Numbered from the stretch's first letter, positions 17,621-28,346 are shown. The stretch: DNA of 51,045 bases from a virus (IMGVR_UViG_3300023174_000234:1-51045); one strand, 5' to 3'. The notes: a model not told the origin generated them from the sequence alone. Made by a program: numbers and translations.

Positions 17621-19723
17621 TTATGTCTGCAATGCTATGGCTCTGAGATCATGAATCTTTGGTGTGAATACTGGATTGTCGCTGTGTAGAGTCATCTTGA
17701 TCTGGAATGTCTTGTACTTGACGTAAGTAACGCCGTTTCCGTCAGTATAAGTCAGACCATTCGGAAGGACCTGCGAGTAGTTTAGACCGGAGTAAGAAGT
17801 AGTGAAAGGTGAGTCGACGGTCATAGAAGTAGAGTTTGCGATCGATACTATGTACTTCTGTTCTCCGTTAACAGAGATGTAGTTACTCACTACTAGCTCG
17901 GTATTAAACGCCGTACCAGAACCGGTGACAAGACCACTGTTATTACTTACTGTAACGGTACCAGTCTTCTGCACGAGATTTGTGATGTTCAAGAAGCCGT
18001 TAGTCTGAGGCGGAATCACTGAAGCTGCATAGTTGAAAGAGTTAGAAGTAGTAGCTACTTGTGAATTGGTGGTAAGAGTCATGTACGAAGAGTTCGTGAT
18101 CGTGCTGACCGTACCAATTATGACGTTTGAATTGTTATATACGATGTATCCGGGCTGTAGCTGAGTATTGAATGCAGAAGCATTAGCTCCCGTGATCACG
18201 TTCGAAGTGAGAGTACCTGTAACAGTCCCAGTTCCTCTCAAGTAAAGAGCCGGATCATTCACGGTGTTCTGCATAGAGAACGAGTACTCTATTAGATTGT
18301 CAGAATCTAGAGCGTCGCTGTAAGTAGCCGGATTGTCATTAGTCAGAAGAGTCCAAGTCTTCTGAGATAGAGGAGCAGAGTCCTGAGCGCTCAAGAACTT
18401 GGCGTAGATCTTCAAGTCAGTGCTCGGAGGTCTCCAAGCAGTTACGTATACCTTGAGATCTTCGGCGTCCTGACCGGAAGCGAGTACGATTGGCTTTGAG
18501 ATGTACTTAGAGGCCACTGTTCCAGTGTTAAAGTACTCCATGTAGACGTTAGCGCCGACACCGTCCAAGTGATTGGTGACGACCATCGCCTGAGATAGCA
18601 CTTGATCCAACATCGGTGAGATGTAATCAGAGTTACTCTGTAGAGTAGCCGTGATGCTTATCGGAGACTTGCGTGGGAGTGTGGTGATACTCTTGCTGTA
18701 ACTAGGCAGTGTTCTCTCTACGTCGTTGAAAGTATTCTCTACGCCGTTTCTTACAGAAGGCGTAGTCCCGGCGACGGCATAAGATCCATTGGATCCTGTG
18801 ATACCGTTGTACGTATATGTAATAGAAGTTCCGGCCGGAAGAGTCTCAACGAATCTTGGAGATACGATGTGATACTTCAAGTCGTCGATGCTGTAGATGG
18901 TCGCATTGGCGATTCGAGTACCTACGCTCGAGTTAGCATAAGCGACAGTCGCGTTACCATCACCATTAGGTCTGAATATCTGTATAGTATTACCGGCGCC
19001 AAACTTACCGGTAGAGTTTTTTAGATAGATCGTATTATTATTAGCGTGAGAGTAATAGATGACGCCGTATAGATTGGTATTTACGACCGTAGAGTTACCA
19101 CCAAACACGACGTCGCCGGCTCTCATCGAGCCAGAAGTCAGATTGGCTATGGTGAAGTACTCGTTATTCGCGGAATTGAATACGACTGTCGCCGTAGACT
19201 GAGTGAACTTATATCTGTTTACGGTGAATTGTAGATACTTAGCCGGATTGAAAGACCAATTTCCACCAGTACTTCCGGTGTACAGACCAGTCAGAGTGAT
19301 CTGCCCAGTCGGCTGAGGAATAGAGCTAGTAGCTCCTAAGATCAAGTCGTTGATTCCGCGCGTGGCAGTGAACAGCTTATAATCTACACTGTTGCCGTCA
19401 GGCTTTATGAGAAGAGCGTACTCCCTATTCGTCAATAGGGCAACTGGATTGTCAAACGTAAACTTAGTAAAATTAGTAGTAGTCTTCGTCGCCGTAGTTC
19501 CAATCGCCGTGATTTCATCAGATCTCAGGTGCTTCTGTCCGTATGGAGATACTTTCGAAATATCTGGTTGACCACCGTTGATTTCACAGATCATTATAGT
19601 CATGCCAAAAGTCGGAGACTTGGCAGATATGGCGATCCGTATAGATTCTATGAATACTTGGCTTACAGAAGCCGGAGCACCGGTTATCTTAAAGCCTTGA
19701 GCCATAGGAATTAAATTAGGCAT
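17621..19723 (-). CDS. Tail structural protein, apparent C-terminal half of a DUF4815-type protein
   Basis: The first ~180 residues of this 700-residue protein (MAQGFKI ... SVSQVFIESIRIAISAKS ... MICEINGGQPD, then FDNPVALLTNREYALLI and LQFTVNRYKF) correspond, as I recall the family, to the region after the DUF4815 portion of the single large tail protein in many T4-like marine phages. There the text reads roughly PLAQSF ... GxFITSIDxFFxSK ... NGxP ... EYxxV ... LKFxxYRA. Here that region is a separate ORF starting 26 nt after the 1618-residue protein ends. The rest alternates Asn/Thr/Ser-rich beta segments and probably lies at the baseplate periphery. Confidence 0.72.
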   Translation of the reverse strand: MPNLIPMAQGFKITGAPASVSQVFIESIRIAISAKSPTFGMTIMICEINGGQPDISKVSPYGQKHLRSDEITAIGTTATKTTTNFTKFTFDNPVALLTNREYALLIKPDGNSVDYKLFTATRGINDLILGATSSIPQPTGQITLTGLYTGSTGGNWSFNPAKYLQFTVNRYKFTQSTATVVFNSANNEYFTIANLTSGSMRAGDVVFGGNSTVVNTNLYGVIYYSHANNNTIYLKNSTGKFGAGNTIQIFRPNGDGNATVAYANSSVGTRIANATIYSIDDLKYHIVSPRFVETLPAGTSITYTYNGITGSNGSYAVAGTTPSVRNGVENTFNDVERTLPSYSKSITTLPRKSPISITATLQSNSDYISPMLDQVLSQAMVVTNHLDGVGANVYMEYFNTGTVASKYISKPIVLASGQDAEDLKVYVTAWRPPSTDLKIYAKFLSAQDSAPLSQKTWTLLTNDNPATYSDALDSDNLIEYSFSMQNTVNDPALYLRGTGTVTGTLTSNVITGANASAFNTQLQPGYIVYNNSNVIIGTVSTITNSSYMTLTTNSQVATTSNSFNYAASVIPPQTNGFLNITNLVQKTGTVTVSNNSGLVTGSGTAFNTELVVSNYISVNGEQKYIVSIANSTSMTVDSPFTTSYSGLNYSQVLPNGLTYTDGNGVTYVKYKTFQIKMTLHSDNPVFTPKIHDLRAIALQT

Positions 19724-19749
19724 CTATTCAACCTTTTATTTTGCAGTTC

Positions 19750-22700
19750 TTAAAAACGGCGATACTTACAAATTCTATTGGCGAACCCGATTGTCGTATA
19801 TAGGCCATTAATTAGCGTTTGAACGAACTTATTCTTTGATAAGAATACTTTCGCGAGGACTCCGTTAAAATCTTTATTATCTATATACAGATTATTCATA
19901 ACGTACGAGCCCAATAGAAGATTATCGGTGCTCTCAGCCATTCTAAACTGTAGGTCTAACACGTCTTGAACGCTGGCTAGGCCTAGCTCGTAGATCTTTC
20001 TGAGCCAACCACCGTCGCCGATGATCGTAGTAGTACCAAATCCATTTACGATATAAGTGTTGTCGCCGTCTACCCAGAGGTTATACGTGACTTCATCACA
20101 GTTATCATCAGTGATCTGTGGATTTACGATGGCCTCCGTCTTACCTAGCCACGGATATCTCTTCGAGACATACACTGGATCTACTGATGATAGCTTGCCA
20201 TCGATGTAGACTGGGTGATTTAGAGTAGCGAAAGGCGCGTACTGAGTAGTGGGCGAGTAAAGCTTAGTATTGACTCTGAACTGCTCGACGAAAGTCACCG
20301 TGTTGATCTTAGTTCCGTCGTAGTTGTATACTCTGTCACCGATTACGACGTTAGAGATCTTCTTCAGTCTTCCATTAGCCATCTTGACCATGGTTCCAGC
20401 CGTGAAGCACACACCACCGCCGCCAGCCGCGGCTGCTCCAGCTGCACCCGCGGCTGAAGCGGAAGAAGAAGCGATACCGGATCCGATGCCTACTGCCGTA
20501 GTAGTCGGCAGAATAGTCTTGGGGCAATGTACCTTAATTCTATCCGCAGTGAACGACGTATACGCGTATGTAGAGACCTGATCGGTGTAACCAAGCTCTG
20601 CCGCCTGTAGAGCGGCCTCGCTGATGAACGCGCCGTTCGCGTCTGCGAGAGCGAACATGATCTGACCGGTCTGAATCTTTCCTGCAGGAATGGTGTACTT
20701 ACCGTAGATGGCTCCGTTCGCGTTAGTTCTTAGAGTAGCACCAAAGTTACCTGTGCGATACACTATAGCGTGATTAGAAGTATCAGTGACGCTCGTATTG
20801 GGTAGTCCTGGAGCGGTGTACTGAGCCCAGAGCATGCCTTCTAGATATGGATACACTACGGTATTCGGTCTCATCGAAGTCGCCTTGAAGGCCATGATAG
20901 TATCGGCCATGTAAGGAACGATCGTCTGCGTGGCGCTAGTAGTAGTCTCAGTGATAGAAGAAGTCTGCTGAGTCTGCGTACCATTTAGATTCATGTTGCT
21001 GGTAGTGCCGCTCGTCTGACTAGGCTTATTCTGCTGATAGTTAGCATTATTCGTGCGACCCTTATCGCTGCCGCCGGCAGGATCATAGTTAGAGCCGTAG
21101 TTTAGATTGCTGACGTTATTAGCGGCATTCTGCAAGTTTCGAGTAGCGTCTGTCGAAGACTGTACTTGAGGTTGTGTGTCCTTGTCCACCTGATGAACCT
21201 GTGGAGGAAACACATACATGTGAGCAGAAGTGAAGTCCGGCTTGTCTGATACTCGCGTGATCTCACTAGTGAATAGCTGCTGGAAATACACGTTCGATTC
21301 GTAGTTCAGCGTGAAGCTAGATCCGATATTATTGGCGTTAGTCATCGTGTACTTAGTTAGCGCCTGTCTGTCGGTAGTCGTGATGGCTCGCGCATGATTC
21401 TCATACACGTGAATGCCGACTCTGTACTCCTGATTAGAGATGTCGCCGTACGCGTGTGAAGTAAAGGTCTCTACGAAGATGCCGTTCTTGAATCGATTGA
21501 GACCGTCTGCAGTTGGAATCTGCATGTCAGTAGCGGCTTTCTCGAGTAAGCTCAGAGAAGTATAGTACTCTAGCTTGGAGATTCGCTCCTCAAGGGTACC
21601 GATGTCAGACATGGTATACCTGCGTATGCTCACAGGAGTCATCTCGTTGGCGTACGTCGTGTCGCGAATGATGCCTACTGACTGCTTATTGACGTTAGTC
21701 TGAACTAGCTGCTCTTCTGTAGTCAGCGAGGGATACGGCTTGATGTTGATGTAAGCGATAGTCAAGAGATCAGGCGGAGGAGTGACTCCGCGTGGAGCTT
21801 CAGAGGCCTCGCCCTTCCGGAAGTTTACGTTGCCCTTAGGATCGATGTAGATTAACTCGTTTCTTCCGATATAGTACTCGATATTCGAAGAAAGAACCGT
21901 ATCAGGAGCGGGAACGTATAGGCCAGAGATGCTGTTGGTGTCTAGCTGCCAAGTAGAAGTGTTGTTTGCAGGATTGACTGTAGCCAGCGCGCTGTTGCCA
22001 GTTATCACAGCAGTATTGCTGACGAATGGCCTGAAGTCTACGTAGTTTCTGAGATTCCTATAGTTCTGTGAAGAGTCAGTGTACACAGGAATGTCTTGAG
22101 TTCTAATAGTAGTATTAGAATCAGCCAAGTCGTTAATTGGATATGAGTCTACAGTAAAGAAACTCGTGCCATACGTGTAATCCGGCTTAAACGAGTCAAA
22201 CACTACCATGATCTTGGTATTGCTGTCTACCGGTGCACCCGGTAGTGGATACAGAGCAGCCAAGTCGTAGTGAGTGTCACGCTGACCGTTATCGAAGTAG
22301 AACTTGTTTAGATAGTCGACGTTCGTGTTCGCGTACGTGGTGCCGACGTATACGTGCTTTAACTTCTGAACGTTTGGAACACCAAGAGACCATGGTCCAG
22401 TAGATCCGCCGGTATTATTCGACGTGTCGATGTTTACTACGATGTCCTCGAGACTCGTGATGTTGGCAGGAATGGCCTGCGTGCGAAGCATCTCGTAGTA
22501 GATCGTCACGTTCGACGTGCTGTTTAGAGCACCAACGATGCCGAATCCAGTGTTGATCGTAGCCTGAGTAGTAGAAGTCACGTTGATGGAGCGAGTGGCA
22601 CCACCTACCATCGTGCTGTCGAACGGGAATACGTATCCAGCAGGAATATACTTAAACGCGCCGTTAGCTACGTATGAGTTAGCTACTGCATCCACAGTTA

Positions 22701-24606
22701 AGAAAGTAGCATTCGTGACGCTGACTACTCTACGAATGTCTCCACCAGTTCCAAAAGTAGAACCTGTAGTCGTAGCGAACTGAATGTACTCTCCAGGTGA
22801 GAGTTGACTTGTAAACGAAGTAGAAGTTCCTGTTACGTTCGCGCCAGTTACTGAGACCGTGCCAGTTATATTCGCGGCAGATCTATTCGTCTGAGTGGCG
22901 ATGACCATGAATCGAGTAGCACCAGAGTCAGTGATGTTTCCGATACCGTAGTTCAGTACTTCAGTACCAGTCGCGCCGCCTCTGCCGCTTAGCGTGAGTG
23001 GAATTAGACCAGTCGTAGCCATTGTAGCGAATGCACGCGTGCGTACTACCTGTGAGGTGTTGTGCGCGTTACCAGCATAAGTGACCGTCTTTACGGCGTT
23101 CTTACCGAAGCCAAAGGTGTAGTTAGTTCCCTCTGAGCTATAGATCGTGGCCTGATTATTGTTTAAGACCAAGTCGGCTACGCCGGTGACACCACCGCTG
23201 TTGAAGTATATCGACTTAGCGTTGTTGGTGAAGCTGTAGCCAGCGTTCATCTTCACGTTAAAGAGATACACATAGTACTGTGCAGTAGGAGTACCGGGCT
23301 GACCGGTGCGATTTAATACAGTCCTCAGGTTAGCAGTACCGATGGCAGTGCCGGTCGGAGTAAGAGAAGAGAATCTTCTTCCAGTGAGAGCCTGCTGAGC
23401 CGTGTTGTAGATCGTCACTGACTCGGCCTGAGTAAAGTCAAAGGCACCAGCCAACTCATTTACGATGACGTAGTTTCCATAAGCCACCTGCAGAGAAGTA
23501 GCATAGTTTAGAGTATCAGTTCCTCGAGCAGTAGAGACTACGTAGGGTCTGCTGAGCTCGATGGGATAGCCCTTCACGTATCCCTTGCCGGGACTGATGA
23601 CGACGTCGAGTGAGTAGGGATCAGAAGTATTAGCGCGAGTGAAGACGTTGAATGGCTTCACGACGAAGTTACCAGTCGAGTCATAAGTCCTGCTGGCGAT
23701 GTCGTCTCCGACTCGTGAAAGCTGAGGATTCGTGAGAACTCGAATGGCGTTGCCGTTCTCAAAGTTGATGATAGGCAAGAAGCCAATCGTATTCGCGGCT
23801 ACAGAAGTATTACTGATAACTAGATTCGCTACGAGCTTCACTCTATCGGCGCCCGGCGCGTTGTAGTTCGAGTAGCCGAGAGCGTTGTCGTTGAGGCTCG
23901 TGTCAGAGGCAGCGGTGACAATGGACTCTGTGACGTCGAATCCACCTACGAGATCGTCTACGACATATGAGTTAGAAGATACGATTACCGTCTGAGGATC
24001 TACTGTTAAGAAGTAACCACGCTTGTATACGATACCAGATCCTACGGTAAGACCGTATGCTAGAGTAGTGGCAGTCGTACCCGCAGAAGTATTAGAGTAA
24101 GTGTATACGTTACCGACAGCGTTATCTGATGCATCCGTGATCGTGAGTAGCTCGTTATTCGAGAACGTCTTGATATCAGAAGCAGAGATCGCCGCGTTAG
24201 ATCCACTGTTTAGATAATACAGATATAAGATATTCGTATTAGGATATGCAGAAGTAGTGCCACGGCTCGGATACGCTACTTTAGCTTGTAGGCCTGTATT
24301 TACGCTGGTTACTTTATAGTCAGTAAATCCATCGATTACGATGAGAGCGCCGTTGGCATAGGTATCTTCGAGGCGAATACCATTCAAGAATGGAATCTGA
24401 GTGATAGAGCATCCATCGATAACAGATCCGGGCTTGTATACTGAGTCGCCGAATCGCTCGATCTGCGTCTGAATGATGGTCTGAAGTTGAGTTAACTCGC
24501 GAGCTTGAACTGCTGTAGCTGGCTTGAAGAGAATTCTGTAATACTTCTTCGTCTCATCGAAGTCATCGAAGTAAGGAGATACGTTAAAATTTGTAGATAG
24601 AGGCAT
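19750..24606 (-). CDS. DUF4815-type tail/baseplate protein ending in a Hint (intein-like) domain
   Basis: The 1618-residue product begins MPLSTNFNVSPYFDDFDETK and YRILFKPATAVQARELTQLQ, the usual DUF4815 opening of large tail proteins in T4-like phages. At ~1260-1380 it has the conserved MAFKATSMRPNTVVYPYLEG block and a TNANGAIYGKYTIPAG segment. An Ala/Gly/Ser linker (~1383-1399) then leads to a Hint domain starting at Cys1400, with ~75 further residues after it. The expected continuation of the tail protein is encoded by the next ORF. It occupies the place of T4 genes 9-12, which have no evident homologues here. The RBS is weak, and a TATAAATA lies 81 nt upstream inside gene 8. Confidence 0.85.
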   Translation of the reverse strand: MPLSTNFNVSPYFDDFDETKKYYRILFKPATAVQARELTQLQTIIQTQIERFGDSVYKPGSVIDGCSITQIPFLNGIRLEDTYANGALIVIDGFTDYKVTSVNTGLQAKVAYPSRGTTSAYPNTNILYLYYLNSGSNAAISASDIKTFSNNELLTITDASDNAVGNVYTYSNTSAGTTATTLAYGLTVGSGIVYKRGYFLTVDPQTVIVSSNSYVVDDLVGGFDVTESIVTAASDTSLNDNALGYSNYNAPGADRVKLVANLVISNTSVAANTIGFLPIINFENGNAIRVLTNPQLSRVGDDIASRTYDSTGNFVVKPFNVFTRANTSDPYSLDVVISPGKGYVKGYPIELSRPYVVSTARGTDTLNYATSLQVAYGNYVIVNELAGAFDFTQAESVTIYNTAQQALTGRRFSSLTPTGTAIGTANLRTVLNRTGQPGTPTAQYYVYLFNVKMNAGYSFTNNAKSIYFNSGGVTGVADLVLNNNQATIYSSEGTNYTFGFGKNAVKTVTYAGNAHNTSQVVRTRAFATMATTGLIPLTLSGRGGATGTEVLNYGIGNITDSGATRFMVIATQTNRSAANITGTVSVTGANVTGTSTSFTSQLSPGEYIQFATTTGSTFGTGGDIRRVVSVTNATFLTVDAVANSYVANGAFKYIPAGYVFPFDSTMVGGATRSINVTSTTQATINTGFGIVGALNSTSNVTIYYEMLRTQAIPANITSLEDIVVNIDTSNNTGGSTGPWSLGVPNVQKLKHVYVGTTYANTNVDYLNKFYFDNGQRDTHYDLAALYPLPGAPVDSNTKIMVVFDSFKPDYTYGTSFFTVDSYPINDLADSNTTIRTQDIPVYTDSSQNYRNLRNYVDFRPFVSNTAVITGNSALATVNPANNTSTWQLDTNSISGLYVPAPDTVLSSNIEYYIGRNELIYIDPKGNVNFRKGEASEAPRGVTPPPDLLTIAYINIKPYPSLTTEEQLVQTNVNKQSVGIIRDTTYANEMTPVSIRRYTMSDIGTLEERISKLEYYTSLSLLEKAATDMQIPTADGLNRFKNGIFVETFTSHAYGDISNQEYRVGIHVYENHARAITTTDRQALTKYTMTNANNIGSSFTLNYESNVYFQQLFTSEITRVSDKPDFTSAHMYVFPPQVHQVDKDTQPQVQSSTDATRNLQNAANNVSNLNYGSNYDPAGGSDKGRTNNANYQQNKPSQTSGTTSNMNLNGTQTQQTSSITETTTSATQTIVPYMADTIMAFKATSMRPNTVVYPYLEGMLWAQYTAPGLPNTSVTDTSNHAIVYRTGNFGATLRTNANGAIYGKYTIPAGKIQTGQIMFALADANGAFISEAALQAAELGYTDQVSTYAYTSFTADRIKVHCPKTILPTTTAVGIGSGIASSSASAAGAAGAAAAGGGGVCFTAGTMVKMANGRLKKISNVVIGDRVYNYDGTKINTVTFVEQFRVNTKLYSPTTQYAPFATLNHPVYIDGKLSSVDPVYVSKRYPWLGKTEAIVNPQITDDNCDEVTYNLWVDGDNTYIVNGFGTTTIIGDGGWLRKIYELGLASVQDVLDLQFRMAESTDNLLLGSYVMNNLYIDNKDFNGVLAKVFLSKNKFVQTLINGLYTTIGFANRICKYRRF
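19984..20409 (-). other. Hint (hedgehog/intein) domain coding segment
   Basis: Residues 1400-1541 of the tail protein carry the Hint blocks. Block A is CFTAGTMVKMANGRLKKISN with the nucleophile Cys1400 after four glycines and a valine. Block B is TLNH with Thr1461 and His1464, the TxxH pair that promotes the N-S acyl shift. Block F is NTYIVNGFGTTT at 1517-1528. The terminal HN plus Cys/Ser/Thr of a splicing intein is absent and no homing endonuclease is present, so cleavage after residue 1399 is more likely than splicing. Confidence 0.85.
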
Positions 24607-24615
24607 CTCATACCC

Positions 24616-26199
24616 TTAAAATTGAATAGCTAATTTGATCTCTTCGTTCGAAGAAGTGCTTCTCGTGACACCGTTTCCAGATAAATTATTTATATACACT
24701 ACATCTGATAGTACAGGGTCTAGTTGGCCATAACTGTTAATTCCAGTTATAGTATACGTGACTAAGTTTCCTTGAAGTGATCCGTATATTACTTCGCCGT
24801 TGGCAAAAGTCTTATCACCGACTATATATGCGCTGTTGGCATAAGGTCCAACTTTTACGTAGTAACCGATGTGCCCGTTTCCGACTAACATTTCATTATT
24901 TGAGAATGTCGGAGTCGAGCTAAGATTGACACTTAGTAGCTGAGAGAAGCTTCCGTTGCTGTATCTAGTAGTCGGAGCAGCTCTATTCTTAGGATCTACT
25001 ATCAGACCGATAGTATTATAAGTGACGTTTGGAATAAAGTTGGCATCAGTATTCGCGAACTGAGCATAGACACCCATGGTATCTACGGCGAGTTCTGAGA
25101 ATACATCTGCGCCATGACCTTTCGGTGGAGAGATGATAGGTCTCGCCGTAGCTCCGGAGCCACTGTTAAATTGATTATAAATCTGTGCTGTAGCTCGAGT
25201 ATAACCACTTCCTCTATTCAACACGACGATCTGATTTACTGTGTTAGCGATAGAGACGTTAGCCCACGCTGTAGCTCCAGTGCCGTCCCCTTCGATCTTT
25301 ACGTAAGGACCGATCTGAAACGAGGCATAGTTATTTGCTACCTGTGACACAGAGTCGATAGGAACATCTGTTCGAACGTAGATATAGTTATATACGTCTG
25401 TGTACGAATCAGTGATTCTTCTTAAGAAAGTATTAGATACGATAGCCGCGGTGCTTATGATGTATAAGTAAGAGTTCTGATACGCGTTTAAGCCTGTCGA
25501 GATGACGCTCGTATTACTCGTGATTTGAAAAGTAGTAGAGTTAACGACCTTGGCGATGGTGCCATTGAGTGAGACGTATCCGCTACCAGCGTTTTCTACT
25601 GAGATGAAACTGATGCCATCATTTGCAGCGGCGGCAGATATGTTATTCGCAAACACCGGCATCTTAGTCGTAGTCGCGAACTTATTCCAGTCAGTGGCAC
25701 TGATGGTATACATGTAATTCCATGTGTATCCATCACTCGTGGTGAACGGTCCACCTATAGGATTATTTGACTGAGATACCGATGGATCGATCTTAGAAGT
25801 TCCTGCATCATTGTTCCAGATGCACTTATAGATGTGCTTGGCTTGACCTGGAACGGATGCGTTACTCACTACATAAAAATCGCTATCGTATAAGTCAGAA
25901 TTGGCGCTATCGTAGAAGCTGTAGAAAGTGTTATTCGCCCAGTCTATTCTACGAGTCATGTATGCGAAGTTATTAGCGTCGGCTGAACTCGTAGCTCCTG
26001 TCGTAGATAGCTGCTTACCGAACATCATCTCTCGTTGAGCTCTATAGACAGCCTCTTCATAGTTCTCATTTACTGTAGTATTCGACGCGTGATCAGAAGC
26101 TCCACCTACGAACATGTATATACGCATATCGTTATTAGCGATACCAGTAAAGAAAGACTTGATGGCGTTTTTCTTGAAATTCTTGAGTATCTTACCCAT
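24616..26199 (-). CDS. 8: Baseplate wedge protein gp8
   Basis: This 527-residue protein is longer than T4 gp8 (334 aa) but keeps its landmarks: a TRRIDWANNTFYSFYD segment, the DFYVVSN ... HIYKCIWNN strand pair, a DGYTWNYMYTIS block, and the closing VYINNLSGNGVTRSTSSNEEIKLAIQF (in T4 the end reads similarly around MENRPPI). It lies in the T4 order 6-7-8. The insertion at ~230-440 is Asn/Ser-rich. The RBS is AGAGG. Confidence 0.85.
   Translation of the reverse strand: MGKILKNFKKNAIKSFFTGIANNDMRIYMFVGGASDHASNTTVNENYEEAVYRAQREMMFGKQLSTTGATSSADANNFAYMTRRIDWANNTFYSFYDSANSDLYDSDFYVVSNASVPGQAKHIYKCIWNNDAGTSKIDPSVSQSNNPIGGPFTTSDGYTWNYMYTISATDWNKFATTTKMPVFANNISAAAANDGISFISVENAGSGYVSLNGTIAKVVNSTTFQITSNTSVISTGLNAYQNSYLYIISTAAIVSNTFLRRITDSYTDVYNYIYVRTDVPIDSVSQVANNYASFQIGPYVKIEGDGTGATAWANVSIANTVNQIVVLNRGSGYTRATAQIYNQFNSGSGATARPIISPPKGHGADVFSELAVDTMGVYAQFANTDANFIPNVTYNTIGLIVDPKNRAAPTTRYSNGSFSQLLSVNLSSTPTFSNNEMLVGNGHIGYYVKVGPYANSAYIVGDKTFANGEVIYGSLQGNLVTYTITGINSYGQLDPVLSDVVYINNLSGNGVTRSTSSNEEIKLAIQF
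24687..24694 (-). promoter_or_regulatory. Possible internal late promoter, TATAAATA, within gene 8
   Basis: A perfect minus-strand box lies inside the end of gene 8 (codons for Tyr-Ile-Asn), 81 nt before the DUF4815 gene. The same bases encode conserved residues, so it may be a coincidence. Confidence 0.3.
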
Positions 26200-26210: not shown

Positions 26211-28346
26211 CTATGTGTTCGCAATAGATACGCTAGATTCACTTATAGTACTCGTCTGATCATCAAGTATATATGGTGTTCCAAATAACTCCATGCCTGA
26301 GATGTGGAACACCTTCTTTATGACTTCCACATACTTCTCGAAAGGAATACCTGACTTGATCGAGTATGAGAAGTCTTGATAGAAATAGCTGTCTTGAATG
26401 TACTTATCAGAGTTCAAGAATCCTCGAGTAGTAGACCAGTAACCCTCTTCGAATCCAATTGCGCTCTTGATGACTCGACCAGTTACGACATTTGATGAAC
26501 TCTGACCGATCACGGCTATTAGTTCTGCACCAGTTCCATTCGCTGTCTGAATCTTTACGATGGGAGGAGTCTGATAACCAGATCCAGAAGCCACGATGAC
26601 TGTATTAACGACTGCTCCCGAAGAATTAGTGTTGATGTATCCATTAGCAGGTGCAGAAGTACCACCGCCGACTACGACGAGTGGTTCACCGTTCTGATAT
26701 CCAGTTCCTGCAGATCGAATCAATACATTGCTTAGAGCTCGGCCACGAATTAGATATACTAAGTCACCGGTGCCAAACGACAGTCCAGAAGTCGTCACCG
26801 TAACATTAGCGATAACGTTATTACCGATATTAACTTTAGCTTGAATGTACTCGTCTTCGCCTAGATTATTCGTTTGATTAGGATCTAGATACTGAGGAAA
26901 TGGAACACTCGATGACCAGAGAGGTCTAGCTAATCTATAGGCAGCATACGTATTACTCTGGAGAGTTGTCGGATAGTCGTCAAGAGTCATGTGCGTATCG
27001 TTAGCGACAGAAGTCACAATTCTATACTCATACGTAGACTCGGTGTACTTATCATTAATTATCTTGATGTAAGTATTTCCAGCAAAATACGTTGTAAAAG
27101 AAGTACCAGTGCCAACTACATTAGCAGAAGAATTAGAGAAGCTTATGTTACCACTTAAGTAAGCGCTGTCGACTACGTCTCTGACTGTTACGATAGGATC
27201 TACTGAATAACCAGCACCTGCGCTATCTGTAGTGACAGATCTAATAGATCCATATTCTTTTGTTTGATATAGAATAGCAGTACTTATAGGCGAAGCTGAA
27301 TTAGCAGCATAACTATTATTCATGTCATATACGGTAGCATTTATGAGAGTATTCTGAAATCCTGCTATCAGCTGTGTAGAATAAGTAACCTGCTCGAGGG
27401 CACCGCCGCTGCGATTGAAGATGTCATAGCTAAATGCCGCGTTCGATCCTGACTTCGGGTTACCTAGTCTAGATATAAATTTCTGTGCAGACGTGGTAAA
27501 TCCATATCCGCCTTCGTTCAAGATGAAGTTCAAGCCGGGCTTAGGACCAACATTTTTTGCTAAGAATCTAGCACTAGCACCCAACGCGGTCTGAATCTCT
27601 AATACGTCGCCCGTGTAAAATCCGTCGCCACCATCTTGAATCTCGAGATCGCTAAGTGATCCGACGATGGTAGGATACAACGCTATATCAGCAGGTTTCT
27701 GCAAGACTCCGTTGACGAATAGAGTCTGAGGAACCAGCGCCTCGTTTAATAGAAACGTGCCGATGATGTTCGTGACGTAGAATATCTGAGAGTAACGGCC
27801 GTTGATGTTTCTTCTGACGTAGTTCTCGGCCACGGCTGTAGCACCAGAGACTACGCCGACGATCACACCAGCTTCCATGCCAAAGCTCTTTGGCGAGTCA
27901 GTTATCTCGATATACTTCTGCTCGATCCAAGTTCCATCAGACGGCTTTAGCACGTCGTCTTTTGGAACATAGATCTCTATGTTCTCGTTATAGAGTAACT
28001 TAAATAATAACTTATATCCTTCTATGGTACCCTTAGACCTATAGACGTCGAGAATGTGCCTGACCAAGAACTTCTTGTCGCCCTTGAAGTACAGAGGCAT
28101 GCCATAGAGATACTTGTTCTGAAAGTGAGTCACGTACTCATCGAGAGTCGTGTCGATGTCTCTATAGTCGAGTAGATTTCTAGACTTTCTGATTACCGCG
28201 TCAGACTCATTAGACTCCATCCACTCGTAGTACGCCTTCATAAACTGAATGAACATGTCTCCTTCTTCTCGATAGAAAGAAGGAAACTGCGAGCTTACGA
28301 ACGTCGATATCTTTTTTTGAATAGATGGATCTAAGAAGTGAGACAT
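26211..28346 (-). CDS. 7: Baseplate wedge protein, gp7 position
   Basis: The 711-residue protein begins MSHFLDPSIQKKISTFVSSQFPSFY and has an acidic-aromatic helical region with FIQFMKAYYEWME, plus VRHILDVYRSKGTIEGYKLLF at ~92-112. This is the start I associate with the large wedge protein between gp6 and gp8 in T4-like marine phages. T4 gp7 is longer (1032 aa), so the identification rests mainly on gene order. The middle contains GxGYxxxP repeats typical of beta-rich tail proteins, for example GSGYQTPPIVKI. It starts one base after gene 6 ends. Confidence 0.7.
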   Translation of the reverse strand: MSHFLDPSIQKKISTFVSSQFPSFYREEGDMFIQFMKAYYEWMESNESDAVIRKSRNLLDYRDIDTTLDEYVTHFQNKYLYGMPLYFKGDKKFLVRHILDVYRSKGTIEGYKLLFKLLYNENIEIYVPKDDVLKPSDGTWIEQKYIEITDSPKSFGMEAGVIVGVVSGATAVAENYVRRNINGRYSQIFYVTNIIGTFLLNEALVPQTLFVNGVLQKPADIALYPTIVGSLSDLEIQDGGDGFYTGDVLEIQTALGASARFLAKNVGPKPGLNFILNEGGYGFTTSAQKFISRLGNPKSGSNAAFSYDIFNRSGGALEQVTYSTQLIAGFQNTLINATVYDMNNSYAANSASPISTAILYQTKEYGSIRSVTTDSAGAGYSVDPIVTVRDVVDSAYLSGNISFSNSSANVVGTGTSFTTYFAGNTYIKIINDKYTESTYEYRIVTSVANDTHMTLDDYPTTLQSNTYAAYRLARPLWSSSVPFPQYLDPNQTNNLGEDEYIQAKVNIGNNVIANVTVTTSGLSFGTGDLVYLIRGRALSNVLIRSAGTGYQNGEPLVVVGGGTSAPANGYINTNSSGAVVNTVIVASGSGYQTPPIVKIQTANGTGAELIAVIGQSSSNVVTGRVIKSAIGFEEGYWSTTRGFLNSDKYIQDSYFYQDFSYSIKSGIPFEKYVEVIKKVFHISGMELFGTPYILDDQTSTISESSVSIANT

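Follow-up and report, generated by a model that had tools for sequence, protein, structure and literature searches.

The 51,045-nucleotide record of an uncultured virus, IMGVR_UViG_3300023174_000234:1-51045 (this whole stretch is termed the window), carries T4-like baseplate genes on its minus strand, where all features described below lie. Among these genes, a DUF4815/VrlC-type baseplate protein is divided over two open reading frames (ORFs), an N part of 1618 residues and a C part of 700 residues. Here, residues 1400-1526 of the N part were found to be a Hint-superfamily domain with blocks A, B and F, which is followed by a helical tail and belongs to a coherent, selected and newly recognised subfamily. 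In the DUF4815 family, Hint domains recur at the joint between the two parts, which suggests that this joint is processed after translation. Our preferred reading, which we hold to be just on the probable side of even, is that the window Hint undergoes an N-S acyl shift at Val1399-Cys1400 with release of a predicted ~150-kDa N part.

A Hint domain and helical tail end the N part

The Hint domain (20029-20409) was delimited by AlphaFold modelling, Foldseek search of the PDB and invariant alignment columns. Its first residue, Cys1400 (20407-20409), is the predicted nucleophile of the N-S acyl shift, and its block B (TLNHP, 20212-20226) includes the catalytic-type residues Thr1461 and His1464; the Cys, Thr and His were each invariant in 31/31 relatives. 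Block F reads YNLWVDGDNTYIVNG, TYNLWVDGDNTYIVNG was located at 20041-20088, and the site of the terminal His-Asn (HN) is occupied by VNGFGTTTIIGDGG. The C-terminal tail, residues 1527-1618 (19753-20028), is conserved together with the Hint, and the two together span 19753-20409. When modelled by AlphaFold (mean predicted local distance difference test score, pLDDT, 92.9; predicted template-modelling score, pTM, 0.87), this segment formed a beta Hint domain and then five helices. The maximum 19-residue hydropathy of the tail was 0.2-1.6, which does not support a transmembrane tail.

By Foldseek against the PDB, the top match was the bacterial intein-like domain (BIL) termed BIL2 of Tetrahymena BUBL1 (6tmm/6y75; E value 5e-8, TM-score to target 0.63-0.67), followed by Vint, the gp41-1 intein, BIL 2lwy and Hedgehog (4e-4 to 6e-4). 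Single-sequence Pfam search returned Hom_end_hint (1.4e-5) and Hint (1.7e-4), both under the curated cut-offs, and a 30-sequence profile compared to PDB chains matched PI-SceI (5e-5) and the Clostridium BIL 2lwy (9e-5). Based on the profile matches to intein and BIL chains and the fold match at E 5e-8, the Hint identity is well beyond chance. An earlier note on this DNA had placed a Hint domain where the first half of a split protein ends, to be given up if no Hint profile hit were found; the 30-sequence profile and the fold match uphold that placement despite the sub-threshold Pfam scores, and its observation that the domain is free of an endonuclease and of a terminal HN was likewise confirmed. 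The interval proposed in that note, 19621-20409, starts properly at the Cys1400 codon but runs into the next ORF, and the four Gly said to stand directly before Cys1400 are present in the order GGGG-V-C, with Val1399 at residue -1.

The N part (19750-24606) matched PF16075 (3e-49) and phrog_358 (6.9e-198), covering positions 1-1338 of the 2056 in the latter profile. The C part (17621-19723), which starts MPNLIPMAQGF, was assigned by phrog_358 (positions 1750-2023 of 2056) and by C-block alignment and a hidden Markov model. About 200 of its residues could be aligned with the C part of homologues made in one piece, for example the protein of Rhizobium phage RHph_I1_18, and it has in common with these the motifs (D)PLAQSF, FFxSK and NGxP. 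Both ORFs are thus homologous to parts of one-piece phrog_358 members, in agreement with the earlier proposal that the 700-residue ORF is the continuation of the DUF4815 protein. The C part itself had no close relatives in viral contigs by single-sequence scan. The two ORFs are separated by 26 bp and are in different frames, and a TAG stop is the codon directly before the ATG of the second; therefore, the two cannot be joined by read-through or by a frameshift further upstream.

The Hint and tail form a conserved subfamily

When IMG/VR contigs were scanned using an alignment, 40 loci were obtained, a few of them fragments, and one of the 40 (L051) was found to carry a different, HN-type Hint. 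By this approach, 31 distinct members of the window subtype were identified. Cys1, Phe2, the block-B Thr and His, and YNLW and DGD of block F were invariant in all 31, and the terminal His-Asn was absent from all 31. The tail of ~90 residues followed by a stop was present in every member except L035, in which the contig ends. The window subtype was the last Hint in 48/48 ORFs, with at most 15 residues after the aligned tail, and a canonical Hint followed it in 0/48. Both Hint and tail are under purifying selection, with pairwise ratios of nonsynonymous to synonymous substitution rates (dN/dS) of 0.02-0.49 where computable.

The same Hint-tail also ends phage proteins of four or more other kinds; among these are a collagen-like protein, a 372-residue protein and a Gly-rich protein from phages that appear to be short-tailed. 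In three loci (L045, L046 and L034), a 496-residue protein encoded just upstream of a gp25-like gene, and resembling by eye a gp5-type baseplate hub protein, has this ending as well. No relatives were found in cellular genomes by a scan of genome contigs with a 4-sequence alignment. In cultured phages, no canonical Hint match was obtained, and the window Hint matched a terminase gene weakly and nothing else.

Hint domains of three types occur at the DUF4815 joint

In 21 DUF4815 loci, the C part is separate and the fragment encoded upstream of it ends in the window subtype. The break varies in position among them, directly preceding (D)PxAQTF, falling within the M block or lying ahead of that block. 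Thus, the earlier description of a Hint exactly at the end of the first half holds for the window, whereas relatives may have break and Hint earlier, in or before the MRP block. In 32 further loci (L073, L070 and 30 more), a single ORF spans the joint and contains in-frame canonical Hints, which run from Cys to HN-(K/R) and are followed by a variable linker and then DPLAQSF. These Hints are often in tandem, with four in L170. Among 82 distinct canonical Hints examined by script, Cys1 was present in 82/82 and the terminal HN in 79/82. The residue after HN in this set was Lys in 60 and Arg in 14 (74/82), and inteins need Cys, Ser or Thr at this position. One ORF of 1838 residues (at 1570 of L157) was noted to have six tandem canonical Hints and, after them, one Hint of the window subtype, with intervening linkers that are often a single Lys.

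The third type (GGGGGCV..CSTTAP..ILHHN) has a Gly run in front and lacks the block-B His. It had no Pfam match, and its model (pLDDT 83.4) matched the Ssp DnaB intein with a TM-score of 0.83. It ends the N part in gene AAY80_267 of the cultured Stenotrophomonas phage DLP6, where six Gly precede the Cys, and in several contigs, including L103, L128 and L213-L221; the DLP6 paper names the VlrC protein with no mention of an intein or of mass spectrometry. A wider set, the A7 family (L103, L128, L213-L249 and cultured Stenotrophomonas, Xanthomonas and Erwinia phages), has at the C terminus of phage proteins a Hint-fold domain that follows a Gly run, lacks the block-B His and is not covered by a Pfam model.

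A tree of the C blocks of 113 loci, which included the 32 with an in-frame Hint, the 21 split with the window subtype, 6 split with an HN-type Hint and 2 split with the third type, required at least 19 changes of Hint state. The window subtype required seven changes, at least five being forced by well-supported branches; the tree was based on 196 columns, has many weak forks and places the window on a long branch. The frequency of Hints and splits was assessed in an unbiased sample of 56 informative junctions, chosen by the N terminus or from cultured phages regardless of Hints. By this approach, 43 were found to be one piece without a Hint, 9 split without a Hint, 2 with an in-frame Hint and 2 split with the third-type Hint. 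In five loci (L010, L013, L110, L125 and L126), the gene is split before the MRP block without a Hint; the family is therefore prone to breaks, and at more than a single position.

Other C-terminal domains were noted in these proteins. In L158 and L171 the Hints are followed, as judged by eye, by an S74-like self-cleaving chaperone sequence of tail fibres (SDxRLKxxI). A helical C-terminal domain with the motif ICTxLYxLG was seen in L054, L154, L177, L181, L191, L194 and L200, often directly after a Hint, and its L054 copy had no Pfam, PHROG or NCBIfam match. The window tail looks like this domain by eye, but homology was rejected by an hhalign probability of 0.5%.

A proposed cleavage and its alternatives

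Among known relatives of the domain, type-B BILs have no block G and are limited to cleavage, whereas canonical type-A BILs splice less than they cleave (PMC4031507); Hedgehog proteins undergo the N-S shift only (PMC7664689). Judged from its motifs, cleavage or attachment by the window domain, as suggested in the earlier note, would fit the conserved Cys1 and TxxH and the lost block G. After folding, the Val1399-Cys1400 bond would shift to a thioester and then be resolved, with the domain acting like a type-B BIL or Hedgehog domain; the products would be the N part, its end flexible and rich in Gly/Ala, and a Hint-tail fragment of ~25 kDa. Since the C part is translated separately, Asn cyclisation, which frees the C-terminal flank, would be unneeded, and this would explain the uniform loss of His-Asn. 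With a separate C part, only the N-terminal reaction would be of use, in keeping with the retention of Cys1 and TxxH and the absence of His-Asn. In relatives, the in-frame canonical Hints would separate, or now and then splice, the N and C parts. VrlC has been described as an integral part of two-layered baseplates, and its gene in pelagiphages as the immediate neighbour of the cluster for host recognition (PMC7029224). As a conjecture, processing at the joint could matter for baseplate assembly or rearrangement; the cleavage would also have a part in maturation.

Several observations weigh against this proposal. Most relatives are one piece without any Hint, and so processing at the joint is not generally required; 9/11 splits in the unbiased sample are without a Hint; and the association of Hint and split in this small sample was not significant (Fisher p = 0.17). 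In addition, loci with the window Hint were collected by Hint search, such that their counts are not frequencies. The split and the Hint may accordingly be unrelated, in a family that splits often and in phages whose virion proteins commonly carry Hints, and the Hint could be active all the same. The Hint-free splits and the other phage proteins that end in Hints favour such an explanation, but three distinct Hint types at the same joint and the multiple changes on the tree do not, and we find it improbable. Still further from likely is a degenerate intein, one of the two readings offered in the earlier note, whose decay broke the gene and left no present function. A relic would be in keeping with the absence of His-Asn and endonuclease, with the canonical in-frame Hints that occupy this joint in relatives, and with the closeness of some split clades on the tree to loci with in-frame or HN-type Hints (L153 by the L019 group; L154 by L033/L036). 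Decay would not produce 31 relatives that share an architecture and have, in several host proteins, Hints and tails with dN/dS far lower than 1, however, and this coherent subfamily, together with the mostly Hint-free splits, does not support the idea, as it was worded, that a degenerate intein split the gene.

Other fates of the thioester were also considered. It may be passed to an amine or other nucleophile, so that the N part would be covalently linked to the C part, a different virion protein or a small molecule that the tail selects. BIL2, the nearest solved structure, passes its flank to lysine and makes isopeptide bonds (PMC8616854), and trans-splicing by a BIL does not need a nucleophilic side chain according to the title of Aranko 2013, cited in PMC4031507. 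A Hint without Asn but with a conserved C-terminal helical module parallels the arrangement of Hedgehog, whose thioester is passed to cholesterol, and the C part of one clade starts M-K-P-I-G-Q-T-F, resembling the HN-K-DPLAQTF of in-frame relatives. Against such ligation, the C parts start without a conserved nucleophile (MPNLIPMAQGF in the window, MAYALSQTF in L016 and MLGFDLAQTF in L041), unrelated phage proteins without such a C part end in the same Hint-tail, and the tail helices are not strongly hydrophobic. We regard ligation as rather unlikely, and slightly more doubtful is its specific form as a phage counterpart of Hedgehog, in which Hint and adduct-recognition tail would attach a molecule to the C terminus of the baseplate protein or weld it to the C part or another subunit. 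An unreactive domain, kept in the virion as a folded C-terminal cap or as a helper of assembly or trimerisation, would account for L054, where the N part ends in a different helical domain without a Hint, and for the S74-like sequences of L158 and L171, as these proteins often have assembly domains at their C termini. An inert cap would not be expected to keep precisely the Cys1, Thr and His that serve the N-S shift invariant among relatives that have diverged strongly, and we judge it less likely than ligation to an amine or small molecule.

If cleavage or ligation at this fixed joint is true, many aquatic T4-like phages would mature their baseplate by self-processing. The interest lies in three distinct Hint types, in frame, in tandem and at the split, at one joint of a widespread baseplate protein; no description of autoprocessing domains at the DUF4815 baseplate joint was found in the literature searched. 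An adduct, if real, would give viruses an analogue of Hedgehog chemistry and would provide new tools for ligation.

Other features of the window

The MRPNTVVYPYLEG block (20836-20874), homologous to a block in relatives, marks the start of the family's M segment, and a Gly/Ala/Ser-rich linker (residues 1373-1399; 20410-20490) ends in GGGGV before Cys1400. On inspection of the sequence, a possible weak Shine-Dalgarno motif, AAAAGG (19732-19737), was located upstream of the C part. Wedge-like proteins are encoded upstream of the 1618-residue ORF (26211-28346 and 24616-26199). After the 700-residue ORF is a fibre-like ORF; the segment 13755-17396 encodes a 1213-residue protein with short NTLxVTGAxTxSNT repeats that is probably a fibre.

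Comparison with known systems

The window domain resembles type-B BILs (Amitai et al. 2003, as presented in PMC4031507) in its Cys1, TxxH block B, YNL-type block F, small size, and absence of an endonuclease and of block G similarity. It differs in having a fixed helical tail of ~90 residues and in its location on phage baseplate and tail proteins, and the autocleavage uncoupled from splicing that marks this class is a prediction for it. Without a terminal HN it is not a type-A BIL, a class defined by a terminal His-Asn without a +1 nucleophile and into which the in-frame relatives fall. BIL2 of Tetrahymena BUBL1, the closest solved fold, has by contrast a C-terminal Asn, ubiquitin-like flanks and lysine isopeptide bonds as its product. 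The Hog domain of Hedgehog is likewise a Hint without the splicing Asn and is followed by a further C-terminal module, but it is a weaker structural match, and the likeness of the tail consists in the presence of a conserved helical module. In Hog domains, a sterol or other adduct resolves the Cys1 thioester by way of a C-terminal recognition region, and a catalytic Asp (D46) activates the sterol. Inteins of classes 1-3 have the same fold and blocks A, B and F, whereas the window domain has no His-Asn, C-extein, +1 nucleophile or endonuclease. It is not a class 1 intein, as it has no terminal His-Asn with Cys, Ser or Thr and no C-extein in the same ORF; since the tail is followed by a stop and the C part is in another frame, no splicing product is possible from the 1618-residue ORF alone. 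Compared to VrlC/DUF4815 of T4-like marine phages (phrog_358), of which both window ORFs are parts, the window protein is distinguished by its two genes and by the Hint-tail on the first.
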